Shown: one piece after another, positions 34,405 to 38,664 of the stretch
Numbering within the stretch: the stretch's first letter is position 1
Layout of the letters: every line of letters starts with the position of its first letter
Virus record (IMG/VR): IMGVR_UViG_3300020390_000076
Coordinates: 1-38,664 of that record
Direction: 5' to 3' (one strand)
Source: a virus
Length of the DNA: 38,664 bases
Program-made: the position numbers and the translations under genes
The notes under the pieces: model-generated
Told to the model about the DNA's origin: nothing
Database searches by the model: none
What the model saw: only the letters and a program-made list of their open reading frames with translations

Positions 34405-35644
34405 GTTTTGTAAAAAGTATGAGGGTGTCACCATCCACGGTAAAAACATACGTATTATGTTCAGTTACCGTGGTGTGCGCTGCATAGAGCCACTTAAAGG
34501 CATTTTGATATCTAAGTCAAATATCAAGTTTGCATCGAATAAACGCACCGCCATATTACATGAGATTGCAACCAACCAATTTAACTACGCTAAACATTTT
34601 CCTGACTCAGCAAAGGTAAGATTGTTTGAGGGGAAAGGTGCAGTACCAACAGTGAACACAGCTTTAGACAAATGGCTAGAAAGAAACAAAGCCAACACCC
34701 GGGCAGATAACTACAAGCACAATTTAGCCAGGTGCAAATTATACATTCGCCCTCAATTTGGAGAGTTAAAGTTAGACAAAGTCACCTTAACCATGATCCG
34801 AGACTGGCGCGACTTAACACTCACCACGTTTTTATCGAATAAAACAATTAACGATGTTTTTATTCCCCTACGTGGCATATTCAAAGATGCAATGGCAGAT
34901 AGGTTAATAGACTTTAATCCACTTGACCATTTACCAAATTTAAAAAGAAGCCGTTCAGAAAACTGTGACCCGTTCACCTTAGAAGAACTGCAGTTGATAG
35001 AGTCGCAGCCAACCGCTGATCAAAGTGAGCTTAATGGGTTTTTATTTGCTTGTTGGACAGGTTTACGCGCATCTGAGTGCTACGCGCTTGCGTGGGAAGA
35101 CATTGATTTTGTAAAACGACAAATAAAAATTAGACGTGGTGTTACCAAAGGCGATTATGCCTACACAAAAAATGACGGCAGTTATAGAACCATCGACCTA
35201 CTAGACCAGGCATACGACATATTAATTCGTCAAAAGACACTTTCATTTGCAATGCCGGCAATCAAGGTCGATGTGTTAAAAGATGACAACCGCAGCTATG
35301 AAAAAGCAGAGCTTAGATTTGTGTTTATTAACACCCTAAACCAAAAGCCGCATACAGATGGTCAAAACGTTAATAAACGATTTTTACAAAAGCATTTAAA
35401 AAAGTGTGGTATTCGCTACCGTGCTATAAACCAAGCTCGCCACACATTTGCAAGCCAGCTGCTTACCAAAGGCGTAGCCGAACGTTGGATAGCTCGCCAA
35501 ATGGGTCACACATCCATCACCATGTTAGAAAAACATTACGGTAAATGGATGAACGAAGAAATACCCGATATGGCCGCGAGAGTTTCAAAGATATTTTCAA
35601 GCCAAAGTCACCAACGAAAAACGGGTATCCGGATTAACGTGTAG
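34385..35644 (+). CDS. int: Tyrosine integrase, C-terminus altered by an IS
   Basis: A protein of 419 residues from ATG 34385; the earlier TTG at 34379 is less likely. The N-terminus resembles the DUF3596 arm-binding domain. The catalytic set is Arg228 (TGLRASE), Lys262, Arg352 (QARHTF), His375 (MGH) and Tyr385 (KHY). The usual first His of HxxR is Asn, as in many relatives. The protein would insert the phage at the tmRNA gene. Its last six residues (GIRINV) are encoded by the left inverted repeat of an IS. The ancestral end, KPANP and TAA, is still present at 37817..37835. Confidence 0.94.
   Translation: MTASLLEFCKKYEGVTIHGKNIRIMFSYRGVRCIEPLKGILISKSNIKFASNKRTAILHEIATNQFNYAKHFPDSAKVRLFEGKGAVPTVNTALDKWLERNKANTRADNYKHNLARCKLYIRPQFGELKLDKVTLTMIRDWRDLTLTTFLSNKTINDVFIPLRGIFKDAMADRLIDFNPLDHLPNLKRSRSENCDPFTLEELQLIESQPTADQSELNGFLFACWTGLRASECYALAWEDIDFVKRQIKIRRGVTKGDYAYTKNDGSYRTIDLLDQAYDILIRQKTLSFAMPAIKVDVLKDDNRSYEKAELRFVFINTLNQKPHTDGQNVNKRFLQKHLKKCGIRYRAINQARHTFASQLLTKGVAERWIARQMGHTSITMLEKHYGKWMNEEIPDMAARVSKIFSSQSHQRKTGIRINV
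35615..35622. repeat. IS target duplication, left copy
   Basis: CGAAAAAC here is repeated exactly at 37809..37816 and flanks the inverted repeats. Eight bp is the usual target duplication of the ISL3 family. Confidence 0.93.
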
Positions 35645-35646
35645 AA
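35623..35646 (+). repeat. IS left terminal inverted repeat
   Basis: This end overlaps the end of the integrase gene and supplies its new stop codon TAG (35642..35644). It differs from the right end at positions 7, 15 and 16. Confidence 0.92.
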
Positions 35647-35648
35647 AC

Positions 35649-36983
35649 CTACTCTTTTGACTTAGCTGCATCAATAGCATCCTGTGTAGAATAGTTTGAA
35701 ATGTACTCACTAAAAATTGCTTGGACTCTTGGTAAACAACTTGGACAAATGGCTATTGGATTCTTGGTGGTGTATTTCATTTCATCCAAGCTGAATATGC
35801 CACTACATGATGAGCATCTGTAAGAGTATTCGACACCTCTACCAAACAGCATTCTTGCTCTGATCATGTCAAATGAATACCCTCTACCAATTCGGTTATC
35901 GAGCCTGGTTAAGTTGTTCATTGATTCAGTAAATGCGTTGGTTACATTGGTATCAATCAAAGCAAAGATTTCATCACGCCAGTTATCGGTTGCCTTTACC
36001 AATGAAGCAAAAGCCTTAGCAACAACACCTGTTAATCCAGATTTCCATTCATCATATGCCGCTTCTGCGTCTGCACGCACTTCATGTTCAAATATCGCGT
36101 AGTAGGATTCTTTAGCATTATAAGCTTGCTCTATAGTTGGTTCGTTTTTAAGCCAGCCATCCAATGCTAGCCACTGCTTATCACTAAGGTTGTGGTTGCG
36201 CTTTCTGAGGATGTAAGCGCCACGTTTATAGCTAATCCTTCCTCGTTTGTTTAGTTTGCTTTGTTGTTGCTTTCGGACGGTATCCACGGCCTGATTAGCC
36301 ATTCTTACAACGTGAAACTTATCTATGACTACTTGTGCATCTGGGAGTATGGCATTAACTGCTGTCTTATATCCGCGCCACATATCAATGGCAACGTACT
36401 TCACATGTTCTTTGTGTGGAAGATTGCTAAGCCACTGCTTAACAAGCTCTACGTTTCGATTTGGAAGCATATCAATAAGCTTCTTGCGGCCAATGTCTGT
36501 AAATACCGCTCTAGGCTGCTTAATCAGATGAATCTCGTCAATTCCTAAGATGTCTGGCGCTACTATTCTGTACGTGTTGCTTACTCGCTCCAAATGCTCA
36601 CCTACAATCAATCGAACGGTTTTTTCGTCAATACCTATTGAATCCGCTATGCTAGTGAATGTCTGACGTAATGCTTGCTTTTCAATGTAATCAACACACC
36701 GCTTTGTAATGCGTCGTTTAGGATCTATGTCAGGATTAGGCTGGATAAATGTCTTTTTGCACGCACGACACTGATAGCGTTTCTGAATAAGCCTAATTAT
36801 AGTCGGAACCATCCTTAGCGGGAGATCTACCACATCTATTGTCTTTGTACCATGGCGATACAATTCCCCAACAACACCGCACTTAGTACAATGATCTGGC
36901 TCTACAATATAGGATGCCTCTACTTCGCAATGATCAACACTCTCTGAAAACTTAGATACGGTCCAGCTTTCACCGAAAAACAT
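35649..36983 (-). CDS. tnpA: ISL3-family transposase
   Basis: A protein of 444 residues from ATG 36983; a TTG at 36995 would add 4. It has the N-terminal zinc finger CTKC...CRAC (Cys32, 35, 72, 75), a helix-turn-helix (about 110 to 125) and a DDE catalytic set: Asp149 (GIDEIHL), Asp200 (AIDMWRGY) and Glu353 (NAFTESMNN). This is the ISL3 layout. An unusual extra zinc ribbon (Cys390, 393, 413, 416) closes the protein. The gene is intact and probably active. It ends 4 nt from the integrase stop codon. Confidence 0.95.
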   Translation of the reverse strand: MFFGESWTVSKFSESVDHCEVEASYIVEPDHCTKCGVVGELYRHGTKTIDVVDLPLRMVPTIIRLIQKRYQCRACKKTFIQPNPDIDPKRRITKRCVDYIEKQALRQTFTSIADSIGIDEKTVRLIVGEHLERVSNTYRIVAPDILGIDEIHLIKQPRAVFTDIGRKKLIDMLPNRNVELVKQWLSNLPHKEHVKYVAIDMWRGYKTAVNAILPDAQVVIDKFHVVRMANQAVDTVRKQQQSKLNKRGRISYKRGAYILRKRNHNLSDKQWLALDGWLKNEPTIEQAYNAKESYYAIFEHEVRADAEAAYDEWKSGLTGVVAKAFASLVKATDNWRDEIFALIDTNVTNAFTESMNNLTRLDNRIGRGYSFDMIRARMLFGRGVEYSYRCSSCSGIFSLDEMKYTTKNPIAICPSCLPRVQAIFSEYISNYSTQDAIDAAKSKE

Positions 36984-36999
36984 ACTGCTACTCAACCGC

Positions 37000-37203
37000 C
37001 TACCTCATGTATTCAATAAAATCAGCGTCGTATTGGTCATCTTCAATACACCAACCACACTTTTCACACCTATGTTTCTTATCATCTCCTTTCATAACTC
37101 TGAACCTGCCACAGTTTGGGCAACCATTCTCAGGGTTGTCGTAATCTCCATTTTTTGAGTGCTGCTTTGCAAACCACTCATCTTCCTGCTCATAGTTAAA
37201 CAT
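37000..37203 (-). CDS. IS passenger: small zinc-ribbon protein
   Basis: A protein of 67 residues from ATG 37203, with AAAGGA upstream. It has CPNCGRF and CEKCGW, a rubredoxin-like zinc ribbon, with acidic ends (YEQEDEW; EDDQYDADFIEY). It ends just before the transposase start and overlaps the preceding gene by 8 nt, so it is made from the same transcript. It may help the transposase or act on its own; function unknown. Confidence 0.75.
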   Translation of the reverse strand: MFNYEQEDEWFAKQHSKNGDYDNPENGCPNCGRFRVMKGDDKKHRCEKCGWCIEDDQYDADFIEYMR

Positions 37204-37393
37204 TTTGGTTAAATCCTTTCCCGCGCAATTTAATTCCAAATATTTTAGCTATTTTTACATCTAACTTTCTGCATTCTTCTCGTAAGCGCTTCATCCTTAC
37301 TCCTTGAGATTGGGAGTTGATGCAAACAACCTTAAAGGGTTTCCACTTACTTCTATCGTTCAATTGACCGTCTTCACCGTGTTGTGGGTTCAT
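37196..37393 (-). CDS. IS passenger: small basic protein
   Basis: A protein of 65 residues starting 3 nt after the stop of the preceding gene. It is basic in its second half (RMKRLREECRKLDVKIAKIF), suggesting DNA or RNA binding. No family was recognised. It belongs to the passenger operon of the IS. Confidence 0.6.
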   Translation of the reverse strand: MNPQHGEDGQLNDRSKWKPFKVVCINSQSQGVRMKRLREECRKLDVKIAKIFGIKLRGKGFNQNV

Positions 37394-37396
37394 AAT

Positions 37397-37729
37397 TTAA
37401 GAATACCTGCTCAACACCCATTCTTGCCAGTCAAAACCGCACTCGCACACAGTACCGTGGCCAACAATAGACATCGTTCCGTGTTCATTCGTTTCGCATT
37501 CATCAGACCTTGGGTCACCACACTCTGGACAGCACGGATATTCAACTTTGATTATTGCGCCAGGTGGTAAATCCGACAGTTTTATAACGATGTCCTCAGT
37601 ATGAGTATCAGAGTCCATGTCACCTTCACAGTAAGTTTCAAATGTTTTAGTGACCTGATCGCAGGAATCACCACCATAACAATCTGCCACCACCTCTGAT
37701 CTCATTATAACGTCAGTATCATAGTTCAT
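37397..37729 (-). CDS. IS passenger: Cys-rich acidic protein
   Basis: A protein of 110 residues with AGAAAGG before the ATG. It is acidic and contains a zinc-binding pattern: CCPECGDPRSDEC in the middle and CECGFDWQEW near the end. It is the first gene of the IS operon, directly behind the right-end repeats. No family was recognised. Confidence 0.72.
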   Translation of the reverse strand: MNYDTDVIMRSEVVADCYGGDSCDQVTKTFETYCEGDMDSDTHTEDIVIKLSDLPPGAIIKVEYPCCPECGDPRSDECETNEHGTMSIVGHGTVCECGFDWQEWVLSRYS

Positions 37730-37740
37730 AAGCCAACCTT

Positions 37741-37757
37741 TCTACATAATAATCCGA
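37741..37757 (-). repeat. Subterminal repeat of the IS right end
   Basis: These 17 bp repeat the inner part of the right terminal repeat with one mismatch, 45 bp further in. The left end has a matching GTGTAGAA (35684..35691) 45 bp inside its own repeat. Such subterminal copies may be extra transposase binding sites. Here the repeat also sits just before the first passenger gene. Confidence 0.72.
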
Positions 37758-37784
37758 TTTAACAAAGCATATACCATCACAGCA

Positions 37785-37808
37785 TTCTACACAATAATCC
37801 GAATACCC
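37785..37808 (-). repeat. IS right terminal inverted repeat
   Basis: Read on the minus strand it matches the left end at 21 of 24 bases. It is followed by the second copy of CGAAAAAC (37809..37816). Confidence 0.92.
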
Positions 37809-37835
37809 CGAAAAACTAAGCCGGCTAATCCATAA
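37809..37835 (+). pseudogene. Severed 3' end of the integrase gene
   Basis: Joined to 35622 without the IS and one target copy, this reads in frame CGA AAA ACT AAG CCG GCT AAT CCA TAA. The ancestral integrase therefore ended RKTKPANP, giving 418 residues. The fragment lies directly before the old integrase terminator. Confidence 0.9.
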
Positions 37836-37875: not shown

Positions 37876-38274
37876 CTATTTAAGAATAATCAATGACCTT
37901 TCGCCTGGTAAGTAAAAGTTACCGTCGTTATCATAGTGGTGGTACAAATCAACAACATTTATATTGTCGCCTTTATCAAACCATTGAAAATGAAGAACCC
38001 AATCAGAGGTTTTATATTTACCGTGGTTTTCTTCATATTCTGGAATACCTATGTGGTAATGCCACAAATGGTTATTCATTGCAAAATTATAGTCATCCTG
38101 ATCCATATAATTACCACTCCATGAACAAGCAATTTTACCCTCATAAAGGCTGAAATCACTTAACCCATGTGCAGTAAACAGATGTAAAAAATCGACTACT
38201 TTATCTTGCTGGTCTTCGGGGAAATAATTAAATTGATTAGCGAAGTCGTCACTAAACGTCCATGTATACGTCAA
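37876..38274 (-). CDS. Probable type II toxin, YafO-like
   Basis: A protein of 132 residues with a TTG start at 38274, 2 nt after the preceding small gene. It contains LSDFSLYEGKIACSW, then LWHYHIGIPEY, SDWVLHFQW and a YLPGERSLI ending. This resembles RelE-fold ribosome-dependent mRNA interferases of the YafO group, though I cannot run a comparison. It would inhibit translation when its partner is lost and so keep the prophage. The alternative is an unrelated small phage protein. Confidence 0.6.
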   Translation of the reverse strand: MTYTWTFSDDFANQFNYFPEDQQDKVVDFLHLFTAHGLSDFSLYEGKIACSWSGNYMDQDDYNFAMNNHLWHYHIGIPEYEENHGKYKTSDWVLHFQWFDKGDNINVVDLYHHYDNDGNFYLPGERSLIILK

Positions 38275-38276
38275 TA

Positions 38277-38423
38277 CTACTTCGCTCTTGATAAGATCAA
38301 TTGTCTTGTTTGCTCGCGAGATAAACCAGCCGGAACAGTATTAACCTTGCTGTTAATAGCTTTTTCCATTCTTTCGCGATTAAAAACTTTGTTTTCTTGT
38401 TTAGGCTGTACTTTAGCTAACAT
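38277..38423 (-). CDS. Probable small antitoxin
   Basis: A protein of 48 residues with AAGGAG before the ATG. It is basic and helical (NRERMEKAINSKVNTVPAGL) and contains no recognised domain. It is upstream of and nearly joined to the toxin-like gene, the usual antitoxin-toxin order. A palindromic operator lies just before it, so it may regulate its own operon. The role is inferred from the pairing. Confidence 0.55.
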   Translation of the reverse strand: MLAKVQPKQENKVFNRERMEKAINSKVNTVPAGLSREQTRQLILSRAK

Positions 38424-38438
38424 TATAAACTCCTTAAA

Positions 38439-38492
38439 GTACCCATGGGTACCTGATACCATGATCGTAGGATATCGAAATAAGGATGTCTA
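38439..38492 (-). promoter_or_regulatory. Promoter and operator of the toxin-antitoxin operon
   Basis: GTACCCATGGGTAC (38439..38452) is a perfect 14-bp palindrome, with a second GGTA...TACC repeat beside it (38449..38461). Upstream on the minus strand is TAGACA-17-TACGAT (38492..38464), a fair sigma-70 promoter. The arrangement suits autorepression by the antitoxin complex. Confidence 0.7.
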
Positions 38493-38587: not shown

Positions 38588-38614
38588 TGGTGGAGCTGGG
38601 GGGATTTGAACCCC
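38588..38614. repeat. attR core within ssrA
   Basis: These 27 bases equal 410..436. Here the repeat continues into the full tmRNA sequence, so integration restored the gene exactly. Confidence 0.93.
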
Positions 38615-38664
38615 CGTCCGAAAAGCCTCGACCTTTGGTACTACATGCTTAGTATCGTCTTTTA
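38588..38664 (-). ncRNA. ssrA: tmRNA, 3' part
   Basis: Read on the minus strand the last 77 bases contain GACTAAGCATGTAGTACC-like sequence (here ACTAAGCATGTAGTACCAAA), then a GGACGGGGGTTCAAATCC T-arm and an acceptor ending in CCA at 38588. This matches the 3' end of gammaproteobacterial tmRNA. The remainder lies beyond the window. tmRNA rescues stalled ribosomes. Confidence 0.95.

Follow-up and report, generated by a model that had tools for sequence, protein, structure and literature searches.

Members of the ISL3 family of insertion sequences that carry passenger genes are already known, and the closest described systems are ISPpu12 and ISPst2. The accessible part of one report lists tnpA, tnpR, a lipoprotein signal peptidase gene and a heavy-metal antiporter gene for ISPpu12a (PMC4133298), and that of another states that the czc module of ISPpu12 gave no metal resistance in tests (PMC4447125). 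For ISPst2, the available portion of the description gives the ends GGGTATCCGGAATTTCTGGTTGAT and GGGTATACGGATTTAATGGTTGAT, 8-base-pair (bp) duplications and two passenger genes (PMC6305408). Here we analyze a transposon of 2186 bp at positions 35623–37808, inside a prophage, in a stretch of 38,664 nucleotides (IMGVR_UViG_3300020390_000076) that is referred to in its entirety as the window. The element is a new member of the cargo-bearing ISL3 branch related to ISPpu12 and ISPst2. Judging from its sequence, we put the probability at about 85% that it is a complete cargo-bearing ISL3 transposon, in which a fixed left-end block is followed by a single slot for cargo and then by the transposase gene, and that its small genes are cargo.

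The inverted repeats start with GG and are flanked by an 8-bp target duplication, as in ISL3, and the position of the passenger genes between the left end and the transposase is that of the ISPpu12/ISPst2 type. The end sequence, GGGTATCCGGATTAACGTGTAGAA, is of the GGGTA..CGGATT type when compared with three ISPpu12-type loci (L062, L065 and L066, recognized by reading their gene sets) and with the ISPst2 ends as printed in the portion available. The ISPpu12-type loci also resemble the window element in having the transposase last with passengers upstream and an inner copy of the end (at 56 bp in theirs), and 8-bp duplications are present in L062 and L066. Their transposases are 38–41% identical to that of the window, but their cargo differs, consisting of genes for a MerR-type regulator, CzcD-like cation efflux and a signal peptidase (LspA), which are bacterial rather than phage-type. 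Searches with Pfam and NCBIfam found no tnpR, lspA or czcD families in the window element, which is thus not ISPpu12 proper. The printed ISPst2 ends equal the right end of the window element at 17 of 24 bases (compared by eye), whereas the passengers given in the same partial source, a permease and an ArsR-type regulator, are unlike those of the window.

The element of Vibrio phage vB_Va_Val-yong3 (L019:3631-5687) shares with the window an ISL3 transposase, the ends and a cargo gene of the same family as the first cargo gene of the window (P4). It has an exact 8-bp duplication, AGTAATAA, and an inner end copy at 57 bp. It differs in that its transposase is 34% identical to that of the window, its P4 gene adjoins the transposase gene instead of standing first in the row, and its other cargo gene is unrelated. 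Searches of one open-access library, at the level of listings and abstract openings, gave no ISL3 report that describes phage cargo, cargo exchange, a fixed slot or a double left end with helical phasing.

Ends, insertion site and transposase of the window element

The features of the element and its immediate flanks are listed by position in the window.

35615..35622, no strand: target-site duplication CGAAAAAC, copy at the transposase end; present as a single copy at the empty sites in L007 and L008
35623..35646, plus strand: right-end inverted repeat, on the 3' side of the transposase
35649..36983, minus strand: ISL3-family transposase, 444 amino acids from the ATG at 36983 (448 from an upstream TTG)
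35736..35828, minus strand: zinc-ribbon-like C-terminal segment of the transposase (PF09723, residues 385–415, below cut-off)
37000..37203, minus strand: cargo gene 3 (P2), small zinc-ribbon protein, 67 amino acids from its ATG (79 from a TTG); phrog_24897
37196..37393, minus strand: cargo gene 2 (P3), small basic protein, 65 amino acids; no match
37397..37729, minus strand: cargo gene 1 (P4), acidic Cys-rich protein, 110 amino acids; phage family phrog_24515
37740..37763, minus strand: second, inner left-end copy, 45 bp inside the outer one; 16/17 core bases
37785..37808, minus strand: left-end inverted repeat, cargo side
37809..37816, no strand: target-site duplication CGAAAAAC, copy at the cargo end

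A first-pass annotation, made from the letters of the window, had taken this locus for a prophage-borne ISL3 element that carries three passenger genes, and its account of the structure is borne out. The 24-bp inverted ends match each other at 21 of 24 positions, the 8-bp duplication is exact on both sides, and the three small genes lie upstream of the transposase on the same strand with gaps or overlaps of 3–16 bases. Together they occupy about 825 bp between the left end and the transposase. The annotation had proposed looking for an empty site in related phages, and such a site was found in two related prophages, the viral contigs L007 and L008. Each carries one CGAAAAAC in the context ...CACCAACGAAAAACTAAGCCGGC..., and their integrases are 100% and 99% identical, respectively, to that of the window. 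In the window the insertion hits the 3' end of the integrase gene, where the final five residues KPANP are replaced by GIRINV. The insertion is recent enough for the exact duplication to have been kept. Ends, duplication, empty site and gene layout are thereby established at the level of sequence. Because relatives of P4 are phage genes, one could take the small genes for ordinary prophage genes and the ends for a chance match; the probability of this is negligible, as the duplication is exact, cargo is flanked by the same type of end in dozens of elements, and the site without the element in L007 and L008 rules it out. Among the matches listed, beyond which lay 38 of the 58 plasmid records, plasmid and phage DNA covers 6% of the window element.

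The transposase frame contains no internal stop, and the protein scores above the cut-offs of PF01610 (6.5e-61), PF14690, PF13542 and NF033550 (278 bits, cut-off 180), with GIDE, DMW, DKFHV and TES-type motifs. It is a full-length ISL3 enzyme with an open frame, intact as the annotation had stated. The extra C-terminal zinc ribbon that had also been proposed is visible in the sequence but weak by hidden Markov model (PF09723, 23.3 bits against a cut-off of 34.4). At least two CxxC pairs are found in the C-terminal tail of 30 of the 87 transposases of the set, the window among them, so the zinc ribbon is typical of part of the group. As a single query against the viral_contigs and genome_contigs collections, the window transposase retrieved no relative. 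In one of ten relatives scanned, the transposase tail passes the HNH model PF01844 (L078:5920-7320), and the zinc ribbon of the window lies at the equivalent place.

Census of the branch and its double left end

An alignment scan of viral_contigs gave 143 relatives, of which we retained the 80 best. Adding the window and 15 loci from plasmids, genomes and phages brings the census to 96 loci; L064, whose transposase is cut by the contig end, is outside it. Of the 96 loci, 58 have paired ends whose duplication agrees at 7/8 bases or better. This exceeds chance, as only 1 of 288 controls did so when each right end was combined with the upstream region of a different locus. Four more loci have an end pair with a weaker duplication. 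Once the duplicate insertions L105, L138 and L143 were removed, 63 non-redundant elements of 1743–6764 bp (median 2273) were obtained. The duplication is an exact 8 bp in 55 of them, and the duplications are 80% A+T, compared with 50% in the left flanks. Four further loci lie outside the 63: L158 (Enterococcus) has no end pair, L159 and L160 have ends without an exact duplication, and L161 has both.

The distance from the left end to the transposase in the 63 elements is 370–5463 bp (median 910), although the largest values (L062 and L066) probably include nested insertions, as seen by eye. Since at least 370 bp lie upstream in all 63, every resolved member of the branch has room for cargo. 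The annotation had described passenger genes as known from a few members of ISL3; this understates the case, as all resolved elements of the branch that were sampled have DNA to accommodate them. Classical ISL3 loci from the same genome search (L037–L059, 22–29% identity) share the transposase family with the window, but of the 10 out of 23 with an end pair, nine have only 46–176 bp between the left end and the transposase frame; three of these loci (L040, L042 and L046) have exact 8-bp duplications.

The inner copy of the left end was overlooked in the annotation of the window, and it is not peculiar to it. Using the 63 non-redundant elements and five from isolated phages, we found an inner copy of the end motif (at least 12/17 core bases) in 64 of 68 elements, compared with 2 of 204 interior control windows. 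The leftmost inner copy lies at 44–46 bp in 41 elements, at 55–57 bp in 22 and at 67 bp in one, counts that are non-independent because sister elements are related by descent; a further copy is present in 11 elements. Steps of 10–11 bp correspond to about one helical turn. All three spacings occur within the largest transposase lineage. The right end has no comparable excess of inner copies. In the group with the 45-bp spacing, a -10-like hexamer is found at one position between the copies in 14 of 23 elements.

The outer end and the inner copy about four helical turns inward form a fixed left-end block, behind which lie a single cargo slot and, as the last gene of the same operon-like row, the transposase. 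We propose that the transposase may bind the two end copies from the same side of the helix. Because the presumed promoter lies at the end copies, such binding would limit the expression of cargo and transposase alike.

Cargo genes and their exchange

The annotation had recognized none of the three small proteins, which remains true of P3, for which Pfam, NCBIfam, PHROGs and PADLOC gave no match. P4 matches phrog_24515 (1.3e-10; GDM, P.G, CP and C.FDW motifs are common to the family) and P2 matches phrog_24897 (5e-14), both families being of unassigned function. Scans of viral_contigs with P2 and P3 retrieved no relative. Two other leads on P4 were set aside. A similarity to TniQ has an expect value (E) of 0.018 across 25 residues and was not taken as evidence. 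The predicted structure is of low confidence (predicted local distance difference test score 74, predicted template modelling score 0.49) and its top PDB match has an E of 1.0, so we make no fold claim.

The P4 family was identified at 16 loci including the window: ten in viral_contigs (L012 and L021–L029), one in a Vibrio genome, two on Vibrio plasmids and two in phage records. They are partly non-independent, as L018 and L027 encode the same P4 protein. Weak matches were left uncounted, namely those to three records of Aeromonas phage 65 (E 0.03) and to three plasmid records (E 2–6). In the DNA examined, which at several loci is cut short on one side, an ISL3 transposase is near P4 only in the window and in Vibrio phage Val-yong3. 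Of the 14 transposase-free loci, 13 have no end motif above 16/24, and L012 has one of 22/24. The annotation had held that small genes occurring without the ends would count against its reading. This was seen for the acidic gene, at those 13 loci, and is a pointer to the origin of the cargo that leaves the ends, duplication and empty site unaffected.

L012 is a case of its own. A block of 403 bases, which spans the inner end copy and P4 and reaches into the first part of P3, is 95.8% identical to the window, with a P4 copy that is 95% identical; beyond the shared block P3 decays, although its first codons survive, and no transposase follows. We read this locus (L012:4967-5375), which has a left end, the acidic gene and a decayed start of the basic gene, as the probable relic of a related element in another phage.

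Of the two roles that the annotation had considered for the small genes, cargo is the one supported by these comparisons, and transposition helpers find no support. As helpers or regulators, P4, P3 and P2 would work with the transposase in the manner of TnpR of ISPpu12. The three genes are indeed co-oriented and tightly packed with the transposase gene, P4-family cargo is present in two elements with a transposase identity of just 34%, and ISPpu12a has the regulator gene tnpR beside tnpA in the accessible part of its report (PMC4133298). However, a comparison of the three proteins with the cargo open reading frames (ORFs) of 66 elements with ends (phmmer, 1e-3) gave no match except P4 in Val-yong3, 14 of the 16 P4-family loci have no transposase in the DNA examined, and transposases that are 90–97% identical often have no cargo in common (7 of 10 pairs). 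We therefore regard a helper role as very improbable.

An alternative in which the cargo serves the transposon itself, as an addiction or silencing module that penalizes loss of the element, draws on the MNT/HepT and AbiEii toxin-antitoxin type genes in plasmid-borne sister elements. For the window it is improbable, though less so than a helper role: searches of Pfam, NCBIfam and PADLOC assigned none of P4, P3 and P2 to a family of toxins or antitoxins. By analogy with the cargo of sister elements, we favour a small phage accessory function for the three genes, most likely one that counters host defence or tunes host takeover.

To describe the cargo more broadly, we scanned the largest plus-strand cargo protein of 40 of the 51 non-redundant viral-contig elements singly against PHROGs; two of the other 11 have no plus-strand cargo ORF. 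A PHROG was matched at 1e-5 by 23 of the 40 (4, 6, 7 and 6 per ten), a figure that describes the cargo and measures no excess. Among the families with a name are those of PAPS reductase, queuine tRNA-ribosyltransferase, DNA methyltransferase and antirepressor. Pfam searches of 86 viral-contig cargo proteins identified Lar restriction alleviation (4), YopX (3), PAPS reductase (2), DNA methylases, BRO and Fic. For 25 of the 38 cargo proteins from other loci they identified HepT-like proteins (2), nucleotidyltransferases (2), AbiEii, cation efflux, MerR and a D12 methyltransferase. Elements on plasmids carry toxin-antitoxin, metal-export and efflux genes, and the cargo of L160 includes an annotated SMR efflux gene. 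IMG/VR contigs are predicted to be viral, so some may be host DNA, a possibility to which L097 and L125 point with their cargo of bacterial type. In general, cargo would ride along and be kept when useful to the DNA in which it lives; in phages, many cargo genes are accessory genes of phages, and several of these are of a type concerned with DNA modification or anti-restriction.

The 130 plus-strand cargo ORFs from 66 elements (including three duplicates) fall into 105 clusters. Among non-redundant pairs with transposases at least 90% identical, 7 of 10 have no common cargo (phmmer, 1e-3); examples are L084/L085 (97% transposase identity), L106/L113 (96%), L080/L085 (94%) and L103/L109 (93%). 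One of the seven, L128/L130, has distantly related cargo, as both match phrog_1245. In all seven pairs the DNA similarity ends 67–82 bp from the left end and returns 1–43 bp before the estimated transposase start. Conversely, one cargo family can be found with transposases only 34–36% identical, namely PAPS reductase-like (L085, L094 and L146), queuine tRNA-ribosyltransferase-like (L080 and L114) and P4 (window and Val-yong3). In the pair L091/L096, the common DNA extends about 465 bp into the first cargo gene, and a site-specific cassette system is therefore unsupported.

We considered whether cargo is gained through alternative left ends, which would be compatible with the cargo-bearing transposon described here. 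An element would insert downstream of a relic left end and a gene, and its next transposition from the outer left end would take the genes between. Vibrio phage Seahorse has two full left-end blocks in one element with different genes after each, and L012 retains a left end and P4 with the transposase side gone, both as this route would have it. Yet an internal second left block is present in only 1 of 71 elements, which excludes it as a general feature, and the similarity in L091/L096 continues into the first cargo gene. Moreover, similarity in the left block of the swapped pairs roughly equals that in the transposase gene or falls somewhat below it, so replacement within the slot fits at least as well. 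We consider the alternative-left-end route possible but rather doubtful. The Seahorse element (L148:2229-4863), with small genes behind each block, may be a snapshot of cargo gain. A second left end (24/24, with an inner copy) lies 4215 bp from the left end of L107, downstream of the resolved element, and suggests that a second copy of the element is nearby.

Elements in isolated phages

Transposase matches at 1e-30 were found in 28 of 50,697 phage records, 20 of them from Vibrio phages, and nine of the 28 were inspected besides Val-yong3. Seahorse, Fraca, K256, K251 g2, DMCA and BSP9 each yielded an element with ends and an exact duplication; vB_LspM-01, HB2107-3I and LIBA6276 yielded none. 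Vibrio phages K256 and K251 g2 carry the same element, identical at 2484 of 2484 bases, with different duplications and non-homologous flanks. Outside the element, the only matches between the two phages at 1e-5 are a tail region of about 6.9 kb (80% identity) and an adjoining piece of 110 bases. The siblings of K251 g2, K245 and K280, are shorter than it by 2492 bp, the length of the element together with a single copy of the 8-bp duplication. The empty site in K245 is exact, and the insertion in K251 g2 hits the start of a regulator gene. Between Seahorse and Val-yong3, transposases are 84% identical and the cargo is without similarity. The identical element in two phages, the differing cargo of sister elements and the inner end copy are established by direct comparison of the DNA. 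In Pseudomonas phage HB2107-3I (L153:225-4231), two ISL3-type transposase genes are adjacent, with a hypothetical gene before each, and no ends were resolved.

A broader reading would be that this ISL3 branch is a one-slot shuttle of phage genes. A self-limiting, phased double left end would lie at the promoter and the transposase gene at the end of the operon, the slot would be refilled repeatedly with phage accessory genes, many of them for DNA modification or anti-restriction, the element would jump between phages and thereby spread these genes, and relic ends as in L012 and Seahorse would seed new cargo. We offer this tentatively, at somewhat less than even odds.

Several results weigh against these readings and limit their reach. 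No end pair was found by script at 34 of the 96 census loci, and of the four of these placed by hand (L004, L014, L015 and L065) the last three have no duplication. The 68 elements with which the double left end was assessed represent 6 transposase lineages at 45% identity, the -10-like motif of the 56-bp group scores like shuffled sequence, and the minus strand of the left end in the window has no consensus promoter. Among the classical loci, L058 combines an exact duplication with 823 bp upstream of a broken transposase frame. For 17 of the 40 largest cargo proteins there was no PHROG match, a count without a control set, and the best relatives recovered for the window transposase are about 44% identical to it. 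With so few matching phage records, a broad role is unsupported.

Lone phage accessory genes ('morons') are common, and the route by which they arrive is unclear. Small transposons with such cargo would be one concrete route, since they are found unchanged across phages and vary in cargo while the ends and transposase stay. This route predicts paired transposase sites on one helical face, cargo expression coupled to transposition, and cargo that is active in phage-host conflict. It also provides a search rule for phage accessory genes of unknown function, based on an ISL3 transposase of this branch and its left end.

At the end of the window, positions 38590–38664 resemble by eye the 3' part of a transfer-messenger RNA (tmRNA) gene, so ssrA is the probable site of the prophage; ARAGORN called no gene anywhere in the window. 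From the integrase terminator to the end of the prophage, the window and the related prophages L007 and L008 differ in genes, an accessory hot spot that in the window (37876–38462) holds a 132-amino-acid protein of phrog_5954 and a 61-amino-acid protein of phrog_17259.

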